Assembly: GCF_014842995.1 (NCBI RefSeq)
Contig: NZ_JACYXL010000001.1
Span: 187,183 to 251,182 of the forward strand
Direction: 5' to 3'
Length of the DNA: 64,000 nt
Origin: Rhodanobacter sp. 7MK24
GTDB lineage: Bacteria; Pseudomonadota; Gammaproteobacteria; Xanthomonadales; Rhodanobacteraceae
Shown here: positions 43,718 to 45,481 of the stretch, piece after piece
Layout: each line of letters begins with the position of its first letter
How positions within the stretch are numbered: the stretch's first letter is position 1
Translations under genes and position numbers: made by a program
Notes under the pieces: model-generated
The model's database searches: none
Told to the model about the DNA's origin: nothing
The model's input: only the letters and a program-made list of their open reading frames with translations

Positions 43718-44293
43718 TCAGCCGACCACCGCCAACTGCGTCCCGAGGTCGAGCAACGGTTGCGCCACCAGCATCCTCGCCAGCAACAGGGCGACGATCA
43801 CCACCGTCGGCGAAAAATCGATCATTCCCACCTGCAACTTGCCGCGCAGCGGGCGCAGCAGAGGGTCGACGATCGTGCCCAGCAGGCGTTGCAGCGGGTG
43901 GTAAGGATCGGGCGCGAACATGCTCATGAGCGACCAGCCGAACACCAAGACGAGATAGAACAGCAGGGCATAGTCCAGCAGTTCCGCCAAGGACAGCACG
44001 AACAAGCCGAGCGGATGCGCCACCAACCCCACCAGCGCGAACAGCACGATGCGCTTCAGCAGCATCGCCAGCCACGCCACCAGCAAGGCGGCGAGGTTGA
44101 TGCGCCGCCAGTTCGGCAGCACGCGGCGCAGCGGCGCCAGCACGGGGTTGGTGGTGCGGTAGATGAACTGGCTGAGCGGGTTGTGAAAGTCCGCGCGGCA
44201 GGCCTCGGCGGCGAGGCGCAGCAGGAACAGCGTGGCGACGGCGTCGAAGGCCAGCTCGACCAGCAGGGCGATGGCGTTGAGCAGGTAACTCAC
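43718..44293 (-). CDS. YggT family membrane protein
   Basis: 191-residue protein with two YGGT repeats, each with two helices. It starts GTG at 44293: MSYLLNAIALLVELAFDAVATLFLLRLAAEACR, then HNPLSQFIYRTTNPVLAPLRRVLPNWRRINLAALLVAW at about 37-73, and a second copy PDPYHPLQRLLGTIVDPLLRPLRGKLQVGMIDFSPTVVIVALLL near 131-173. YggT is linked to osmotic stress and cell-envelope functions. In most proteobacteria it follows proC (and yggS). Here an inverted-repeat element separates it from proC. Confidence 0.92.
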   Translation of the reverse strand: MSYLLNAIALLVELAFDAVATLFLLRLAAEACRADFHNPLSQFIYRTTNPVLAPLRRVLPNWRRINLAALLVAWLAMLLKRIVLFALVGLVAHPLGLFVLSLAELLDYALLFYLVLVFGWSLMSMFAPDPYHPLQRLLGTIVDPLLRPLRGKLQVGMIDFSPTVVIVALLLARMLVAQPLLDLGTQLAVVG

Positions 44294-44297
44294 GGAT

Positions 44298-44568
44298 TAG
44301 AGCCTGGTTGTGATCTCCAAGCACTCCGCGCCGAGAGCTGTTTGCGCGCGAGCCGAGGAAGAGCGGGGGAGTGGACGTCGGTCCATGGCGGAGTAATGAC
44401 GCAGGGATGCGGGCAAACAACCACGGCCCGTGCAGGTTGCCATCGAGCGGTAGCCATGCGGTAGCGAACGGCCTGACCAGCCAGCCACGCAGGCCATGCG
44501 CCACGCCCTGCCGTCTGACGGCCACTTGATGGCAATGCGGAGTGCTTGGAGATCATAAACAGGCTCTA
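44298..44568. repeat. 271-nt element with 32-bp terminal inverted repeats and two internal hairpins
   Basis: The ends are inverted repeats of 32 bp with about two mismatches (TAGAGCCTGGTTGTGATCTC at 44298-44317 against its complement ending at 44568). Two internal hairpins fill the inside: (i) GTTTGCGCGC (44340-44349) with GCGGGCAAAC (44409-44418), with a nested TGGAC/GTCCA stem sharing the same centre; (ii) GTTGCCATCGAGCGG (44436-44450) with CCACTTGATGGCAAT (44522-44536). The fold is a closed three-stem shape like a cloverleaf. CTA at 44566-44568 is the proC stop. No transposase. A MITE-like element or structured RNA. Confidence 0.75.
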
Positions 44569-45387
44569 GGTCTCCTTGTCCAGGGCGTCGGCCAGTTCCG
44601 CGCCGCGACGGGTGGCCGCGGCGACGGCACGGGCCGTGACGCGCGGCAGGTCGTCGGCAGCGAAACTTTCCAGCGCGGCCTGCGTGGTGCCGTTGGGCGA
44701 GGTGACGCGGCGGCGCAGTTCGGCGGGATCCTCGCCGCTTTCCACCAGCATGCGGCCTGCGCCCAGGCAGGTCTGCGCGGCCAGCGCGCGGGCGGTGTCG
44801 CGAGGCATGCCTTGTGCCACGGCGGCGTCTTCCAGCGCCTCGACCAGGGCGAAGAAGTAGGCGGGACCGGAACCGGAGAGCGCGGTGACGGTGTCCATCA
44901 GCGACTCGTCGGCGATCCAGCGGGTCAGGCCGGCGGCATCCATGATGTGTTGCGCCAGCGCCTTCTGGGCAGGGCTGACGCGGCCGTTGGCGCACAGGCC
45001 GGTGGCGCCGGCGCCGATCAAGGCGGGTGTGTTCGGCATGCAGCGCACGATGGGCAGGTTGCCCAGCCAGCGTTCCAGCTGGTCCAGCCGCACGCCGGCG
45101 GCGATCGAGATGACCAGCGGTCGCTGGCCCTGCATGGCCATGCGCAGCTCGGCCTGCACTTTGGGCATGGCCTGCGGCTTCACCGCCAGCACGATCACCT
45201 CGGCGTCGGCCACGGCCAGCCGGTTCTCGGCAAAAGTGGCTATGCCGAAGTCATGGCCCAGCTTGTCGCGCGTCTCGGCCAGCGGTTCGGCCACGCGGAT
45301 GTCGGCGGGCGCCAGGCCGGTGGCGAGCAGGCCGCCGATCAGGCTGCGTGCCATGTTGCCGCCGCCGACGAAGGCGATACGTGTCAT
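44566..45387 (-). CDS. proC: Pyrroline-5-carboxylate reductase
   Basis: Last enzyme of proline synthesis (273 residues), NAD(P)H-dependent. Rossmann motif IAFVGGGNMARSLIGGLL at 4-21, the segment CMPNTPALIGAGATGL at about 115-130, and the P5C-binding ALSGSGPAYFFALVEAL at about 162-178 with the helix RRRVTSPNGTTQAALESF. Start 45387 (MTRIAFVG) chosen over ATG 45420. The TAG stop is the last three bases of the inverted-repeat element. Divergent from pilT by 259 nt; yggS, usually between them, is absent. Confidence 0.95.
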   Translation of the reverse strand: MTRIAFVGGGNMARSLIGGLLATGLAPADIRVAEPLAETRDKLGHDFGIATFAENRLAVADAEVIVLAVKPQAMPKVQAELRMAMQGQRPLVISIAAGVRLDQLERWLGNLPIVRCMPNTPALIGAGATGLCANGRVSPAQKALAQHIMDAAGLTRWIADESLMDTVTALSGSGPAYFFALVEALEDAAVAQGMPRDTARALAAQTCLGAGRMLVESGEDPAELRRRVTSPNGTTQAALESFAADDLPRVTARAVAAATRRGAELADALDKET

Positions 45388-45481
45388 GAAGGCACCTGGG
45401 TTGGGGGGGAACGGTCGCATACCTTACCGGAGTGGGCGTCGTCCTGGGGTGCCGCGGTTTCGGTGACGCGGTGCGCAAACC

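Follow-up and report, generated by a model that had tools for sequence, protein, structure and literature searches.

A decayed MITE-like element with a twin-hairpin interior separates proC and yggT in Rhodanobacter sp. 7MK24

MITEs are usually regarded as leftovers whose interior is unimportant. REP and BIME elements are dispersed palindromes located near the 3′ ends of genes, and NEMIS and RUP are intergenic mobile repeats giving rise to transcripts that fold and may be processed. Similar properties are ascribed to Correia, ERIC and BOX sequences, which are intergenic and mobile, their transcripts being foldable and possibly subjected to processing (relevant portion of PMC10969869). With respect to termini and targets, the closest described group is the IS1031 subgroup of the IS5 family, for which ends of GAACCTGTCTAGTATCT type and TNA targets are specified (PMC12016507). 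Here, we consider a 271-nt segment (44298-44568) found between proC and yggT within a 64,000-nt stretch of the Rhodanobacter sp. 7MK24 genome (hereafter, the window), which is a decayed copy of a mobile element family and very probably represents a non-autonomous MITE-like element moved in trans by IS5-family transposases.

Structure of the element and its insertion between proC and yggT

The initial annotation, made from the sequence of the segment, proposed 32-bp TIRs with about two mismatches, a folded three-stem structure with two inner hairpins, and the lack of a transposase or recognisable coding content. The 32-nt terminal repeats are indeed matched in 30 of 32 positions (94% complementary), and the segment, folding into a TIR stem and two inner hairpins, has an MFE of -144.7 kcal/mol versus the mean of -109.2 for shuffled sequences (z -6.9, none of 200 shuffles folding as well). 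The number of inner hairpins thus proved to be correct, but not the length of 10-15 nt assigned to their paired arms, as each hairpin occupies about 100 nt with many interruptions. The resulting layout is TIR, hairpin, centre, inverted hairpin, TIR (Table 1), with an interior made of two inverted, diverged copies of one hairpin: positions 138-237 of the family consensus match the arm-1 side of the window copy in reverse (70.6%, E 5e-5, BLAST). On the side of arm 1, the covariance model R1, whose alignment excluded the window copy, matches positions 44329-44438 with E of 6e-17. The outer TA bases of the segment belong to the target and not to the mobile unit proper.

Table 1. Features of the window locus
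Feature	Coordinates	Strand	Basis
Mobile unit GAGCC...GGCTC, 267 nt	44300..44566	.	Boundary common to aligned copies
Left TIR including two target bases	44298..44329	+	Inverted-repeat comparison; TIR matches elsewhere
Right TIR including two target bases	44537..44568	-	Inverted-repeat comparison; TIR matches elsewhere
Arm 1 hairpin; four tandem G.A in Lysobacterales consensus, 5/8 G.A remain here	44330..44427	+	Fold, copy alignment, covariance model R1
Centre: decayed CCC-(TNC or GNA)-GGG mini-hairpin	44428..44435	.	Sequence and family comparison
Arm 2: inverted, diverged copy of arm 1	44436..44536	-	Fold; arm-1 model; BLAST
Left target bases TTA (TNA type)	44297..44299	.	Sequence; family TNA statistics
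Right target bases TAG	44567..44569	.	Sequence
proC; TAG stop formed by target TA and the first base of the element	44566..45420	-	Pfam P5CR_dimer
yggT, GTG start	43718..44293	-	Pfam YGGT

The window copy shows evident traces of decay. It is approximately 83% identical to the family consensus and retains five of eight G.A mismatches, versus seven or eight in 106 of the 111 copies described below, while at its flanks a TA/TA duplication is left and a perfect 3-bp one is absent.

The last three bases of the segment were noticed from the beginning to form the proC stop codon (TAG at 44568-44566), and the interruption of the proC-yggT pair proposed at the same time is confirmed by relatives, where the junction is empty. 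Among 29 other proC loci, ranging from the genus to the order and obtained by a search of 41 genomes, neither BLAST nor the arm model detected the element (at one of them, in G007, no yggT is found beside proC in the stretch inspected). In 10 of 14 same-genus loci the genes overlap, so that the proC stop TGA and the yggT start GTG share the GTGA sequence; the distance from the last proC Glu codon to the yggT GTG, estimated by eye, is 8 nt in all ten of them and 278 nt in the window, and the additional 270 nt equal the 267-nt element plus 3 bp. Insertion therefore hit the proC/yggT overlap of this lineage, set the genes 270 bp apart and created a new proC stop, the GTG of yggT beginning 3-4 nt past the target on the other side of the element (minus strand). 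Since the overlap of genes was broken, their translational coupling presumably was lost as well.

The location between both genes together with the strong fold might indicate a structured RNA that serves the proC-yggT transcript specifically, as had been suggested initially. At this locus such a role finds no support and appears highly improbable, given that the element is missing from each of the 29 other proC loci, some of the conserved detail has disappeared from the window copy, the family is spread over many loci, and no Rfam family corresponds to it: the window copy and nine other loci gave Rfam matches only far below gathering scores. The more general idea of a structured nucleic acid is justified at the level of the family, where the structure is clearly conserved, but not for the proC/yggT locus, and the window copy, which is decaying, probably does little besides separating the two genes.

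Dispersal, target sites and partner insertion sequences

A search with the 271 nt gave 54 alignment pieces in the genome of origin at E<=10, of which 15 cover at least 226 of 271 positions; the pieces include parts of single copies and arm-to-arm echoes, so the copy number is lower. A family consensus built from 15 own-genome copies matched 13 of 15 genomes of the genus (E<=0.001), 75 of 147 genomes of the family representing 20 of 26 genera (E<=0.001, five candidates scored per genome), and 32 of 250 genomes of the order (E<=1e-6, three candidates scored per genome), the own genome being included in each case. In a named genome collection, a 49-nt arm pattern was found in 49 stretches labelled as Rhodanobacter, Fulvimonas, Frateuria, Dyella, one “Lysobacterales bacterium” and one “Proteobacteria bacterium”. 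Among plasmids, one query produced a single partial match, in Methylophaga frappieri and over 43% of its length, and two further queries produced none, nor were matches obtained in phages and E. coli genomes with one query each. Thus, the BLASTN survey recommended by the initial annotation revealed many dispersed copies, which covary in structure, and not a unique copy devoid of covariation; together with TNA target duplications and empty sites this bears out the non-autonomous mobile element it had suspected.

For comparative analysis, 111 full-length copies were retained from 192 BLAST matches (query positions 1-3 to 266-268, 20-nt flanks, duplicates removed); their loci are a chosen subset of the places matched and include two certain ortholog pairs, so that the copies are not fully independent. 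This set also allowed evaluating whether the segment might be coding or represent a piece of an autonomous IS. Most of the window copy is spanned by an open frame of 88 aa on the minus strand, and 57 of the 111 copies have one minus-strand frame without any interruption. In the other 54 it is broken, though, variability has no clear codon rhythm, no transposase coding is seen, as the initial annotation had stated, and lengths of 267 and 268 nt are both common (24 and 73 of 111, respectively). The coding reading was rejected on account of the broken frames and unclear codon rhythm, and the probability that coding or IS-derived remains explain the segment is close to negligible.

The triplets at the ends correspond to TNA in 83 (left) and 77 (right) of 111 copies and on both sides in 61, the middle base being identical in 39 of these 61 versus a mean of 17.1 and a maximum of 28 in 5000 shuffles, and a perfect 3-bp target match is observed in 40 copies of the whole set. 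In G012 and G016, copies occupying different loci are 98.9-99.3% identical, indicating that the family was recently active in some genomes. Terminal inverted repeats, dispersed copies with presence/absence polymorphism and the lack of a transposase gene are all characteristic of MITEs, and the target-site duplication, reduced to TA/TA in the window copy, is evident at the level of the family.

Several structural variants accompany the full-length copies. TIR-only forms (L235 in G002, L236 in G005 and L237 in G012) have a central 50-55 nt with nearly joined ends and TNA-like flanks, and G012 also has forms of only about 160-200 nt in which one arm is missing or truncated (L238-L242), implying that the arms can change separately. 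A variant of the own genome has approximately 45 extra nucleotides in arm 1 (L014, L019, L020, L022-L024 and L030), several representatives carrying a further palindrome GAGTCCATGGATGGACTC, and other genomes have matches about 312 nt long that may belong to the same form. In the subfamily L223-L234, from other genera and in one case from G002, the inner half of both TIRs is altered jointly, e.g., TTCATATGCC in place of TTCACGATCTCC. In the second family, the same insertion sites with similar flanks are occupied in pairs of genomes—L316 (G301) and L317 (G269), L313 (G237) and L321 (G269)—most of arm 2 being absent from L321.

Of the features that define the IS1031 subgroup, the element shares the TNA target, the 3-bp duplication and ends resembling GA.CCTGT (PMC12016507), but encodes no IS5 transposase of its own in two overlapping frames; it carries IS1031-type ends but is not such an IS itself. 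Candidate partners are available elsewhere. An IS of G012 has ends AGAGCCTGTTCAAAGTCTC and transposase frames matching DUF4096 and DDE_Tnp_1 with IS5_3 as the best NCBIfam match, and its homologues in G046 are associated with TAA and TCA duplications. Five copies of another IS of about 808 bp, with ends GGGCGTGTTAACACTA and the same best NCBIfam match, IS5_3, were seen in G470, which also carries twin-hairpin elements with ends GGGCCTGTTAACACTA. In G016, where recently active copies reside, the transposase of L361 is flanked by TIR-like sequences of the other end type. As a separate observation, the left and right ends of the IS5-family element of G012 (L093, 1078-2316) are partly duplicated in tandem. 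Searches of the own genome gave no IS with matching ends, one weak match to PF01609 and no counterpart of the G012 transposase at 1e-30. Of 147 family genomes, 4 have the G012-type transposase (E<=1e-30) and 75 the element (E<=0.001), so that this candidate partner could cover a small part of the genomes carrying the element. Transposition would proceed through binding of the matching ends by the transposase of an IS5-family element that is, or once was, resident. Judging from sequence comparisons, such mobility in trans is well supported by the ends, the targets, the polymorphism and the existence of partner-type elements.

Conservation of the inner fold

Over 104 pairs of the consensus fold, Watson-Crick combinations are more numerous than in column shuffles for the TIR (3190 versus 2608), arm 1 (3601 versus 3419) and arm 2 (3841 versus 3371). 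In 52 disjoint nearest pairs of copies, compensated double changes amount to 98, 17 and 57 in the TIR, arm 1 and arm 2, respectively, whereas independent changes would yield 16, 5 and 10 doubles, counting those of every kind. The interior has a further peculiarity: four tandem G.A/A.G mismatches of arm 1 are retained in 98-110 of 111 copies, and the pairs intervening between them covary. Variability of the G.A columns is 0.025 versus 0.122 over all columns (P 0.0002 against random columns and 0.012 within arm 1, relatedness uncorrected).

Ten elements from other lineages, of which six represent a second family and four belong to two further genera of the first one, carry the same interior between different ends; these are the whole elements with other ends among 20 regions retrieved, L318, L320 and L321 being shortened and L326-L332 left out. 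In the arm-1 set uniting both families (alignment A1, 33 of 37 references, with L018, L040, L048 and the window copy L110 excluded), each of the eight G.A pairs is retained in 27-33 of the 33 sequences, and 93.7% of pair cells do pair versus 29-39% when the alignment is slid. R1 also gives opposite-strand matches to arm 2 (E values: L347, 6.5e-9; L336, 1.8e-7; L341, 2e-6; L346, 2.5e-6; L337, 4e-5), more weakly in Rhodanobacteraceae copies (e.g., 0.001 for L034) and with many loci where no such match is reported.

On the scale of the class, R1 matches 31 of 274 sampled genomes belonging to 28 genera, own included, and among the other 30 there are 16 with at least two matches, five of these having 8-14. 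One match corresponds to one arm; at least two genomes have neighbouring matches of opposite orientation that are the two arms of one element. The loci inspected contain whole elements, and 13 of the 14 measured are 256-279 nt long, 11 of them falling into the range of 264-267 (e.g., 266 nt in L337), with the short form L352 of 189 nt; these 14 were taken from 19 loci after exclusion of L334, L336, L340, L344 and L351 situated at contig ends or having short flanks. In the alignment of these 19 best loci, which is fitted to the model and hence leans to it, standard pairs make up 96.0% of the pair cells, and a compensated change occurs at 30 of 33 pairs. Retention of the mismatches is uneven: among the four G.A tandems, only the third persists well (18 and 17 of 19), the first one has G.A in 19 and mostly C.A (16) at its other pair, the second survives in 10 and 12, and the fourth is mostly lost. 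Many families of the class preserve the hairpin shape, with the sequence and the ends varying.

Covariation may, in principle, be purely mutational, provided that palindrome arms are corrected by template switching and selection is not involved. The agreement of TIRs, 93% within one copy versus 76% between copies, joint changes of whole blocks and the lack of an overall strand preference in wobbles are all compatible with that. Correction would erase mismatches, however, yet the tandem G.A pairs of Lysobacterales are among the most conserved columns—a conservation limited class-wide to one tandem—and the total length is conserved too, making template switching alone unlikely as the explanation. 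Since the mismatches in Lysobacterales are among the best-kept features, the inner hairpins are probably maintained by more than palindrome correction alone, and selection may be responsible for keeping them.

Strand preference was assessed via single changes at consensus Watson-Crick pairs. They yielded 224 G.U and 274 A.C, without overall strand preference, but the wobbles of the two arms lean to opposite strands. For the plus strand, changes to G.U and to A.C relate as 13/8 on internal and 60/40 on terminal branches in arm 1, 7/29 and 43/77 in arm 2, and 19/15 and 42/51 in the TIR. With such opposite leanings one folded RNA does not explain both arms, and the dyad symmetry of the element fits them. 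A variant of the strand test on pairs of the plus-strand fold (G.U 362, A.C 293) was dropped as biased toward the plus strand. At least 91 of 111 copies have either TNC or its reverse complement GNA as the loop of the centre; as a side observation, the coexistence of TNC in some copies and GNA in others looks as though this 3-nt loop had been repeatedly inverted.

Orientation, possible role of the hairpins and known repeats

The genomic context of the copies was deduced using gene calls from a codon model trained on the window, with flank scores above 25 for 173 of 221 flanks and for both flanks in 71 of 111 copies. A gene points at the element in 75 copies, and in 34 copies the stop codon of a gene lies at the TNA (29 flanks) or one base inside the element (5 flanks). 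Since TNA covers TAA, TGA and their complements, stop codons are natural targets; in the window, 36 of 236 intergenic TNA sites are stop codons according to a crude gene finder (ten more overlap another gene), and among those with C before or G after the proportion is 26 of 112. Placement at stop codons is only approximately twice the expectation from available TNA sites.

Orientation is biased. Among 51 copies situated between codirectional genes, arm 2 comes first in the transcript in 42 and arm 1 in 9 (P 3e-6), and in 98 of 111 copies the more stable fold belongs to the strand that the common orientation exposes to transcription, the mean advantage being 8 kcal/mol; the window copy reverses this trend, its other strand being slightly more stable (-143.4 versus -138.9). 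Movement of the replication fork was rejected as the cause of the bias, as 20 copies are oriented with it and 22 against it (42 listed copies from six genomes, the origin being placed at dnaA and the terminus assumed opposite, with three of six chromosome lengths rounded and G018 left out, although its dnaA was located).

Regardless of which strand is transcribed, the RNA would include the hairpin in sense orientation immediately inside the element. Being structured and hard for Rho or nucleases to use, such hairpin RNA would make the insertion tolerable or even useful in operon transcripts. We consider retention of the hairpins for this reason a tentative hypothesis, drawn from sequence patterns, whose chance of being right is only a little below even. 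The main rival assumes that the hairpins operate as single-stranded or cruciform DNA in transposition or replication and not as RNA, each end of the element being composed of a TIR and, on the strand that reads inward, an inner hairpin. Dyad symmetry, with the arm-1 model matching arm 2 on the opposite strand as would be the case for two equivalent ends, the reverse-complementary TNC and GNA loops of the centre and wobbles lacking overall strand preference are in line with a function in DNA. Nevertheless, the arm model found no match at nine IS loci with ends of this kind (from G012, G046, G016 and G470), so these transposases make no use of the hairpin in moving their own element, short forms missing one or both arms exist, and orientation tracks transcription (42 versus 9) and not replication (20 versus 22). 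The DNA-level function is possible but somewhat less than probable, and since orientation follows transcription, the effect on the transcript is favoured over the role in transposition.

In a broader formulation, the twin-hairpin elements might constitute class-wide mobile structured nucleic acids, in which the shape and the length (about 265 nt with two inverted G.A hairpins) would be inherited under selection instead of the sequence, the ends would be changed to suit the local IS5-family transposase, and dyad symmetry would ensure functional hairpin RNA for either way of insertion in an operon. This formulation is made less likely by the fact that only one G.A tandem is well kept class-wide, and we regard it as rather doubtful.

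Contrary to the usual perception of MITEs, the mismatches are kept in nearly all Lysobacterales copies, pairs are compensated across many families, and the length is nearly fixed at differing ends. The question why a parasite's parasite preserves an elaborate fold, whether to move itself or to act on the host transcript, thereby becomes testable, and the covariance model could be used to annotate unexplained intergenic repeats in many genomes.

A MITE combining a conserved double hairpin with differing ends was not encountered in searches of the open-access literature or in Rfam. Unlike REP/BIME, the twin-hairpin element possesses target duplications and DDE-type terminal inverted repeats. The likeness to Correia/NEMIS, ERIC, BOX and RUP is drawn from descriptions of these repeats, and two inverted G.A hairpins with IS1031-type ends do not figure in the portion of PMC10969869 devoted to Correia, ERIC and BOX. 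The closest resemblance is with IS5-family MITEs of the IS1031 subgroup, which are also small and non-coding, have TIRs starting with GAGCCTGT, a TNA target and partner-type elements of the IS5 family. Unlike them, our element contains a conserved inverted hairpin pair, keeps a length near 265 nt class-wide and has the same interior carried by more than one end type; it is a kind of MITE, distinguished by a conserved double-hairpin interior with differing ends.
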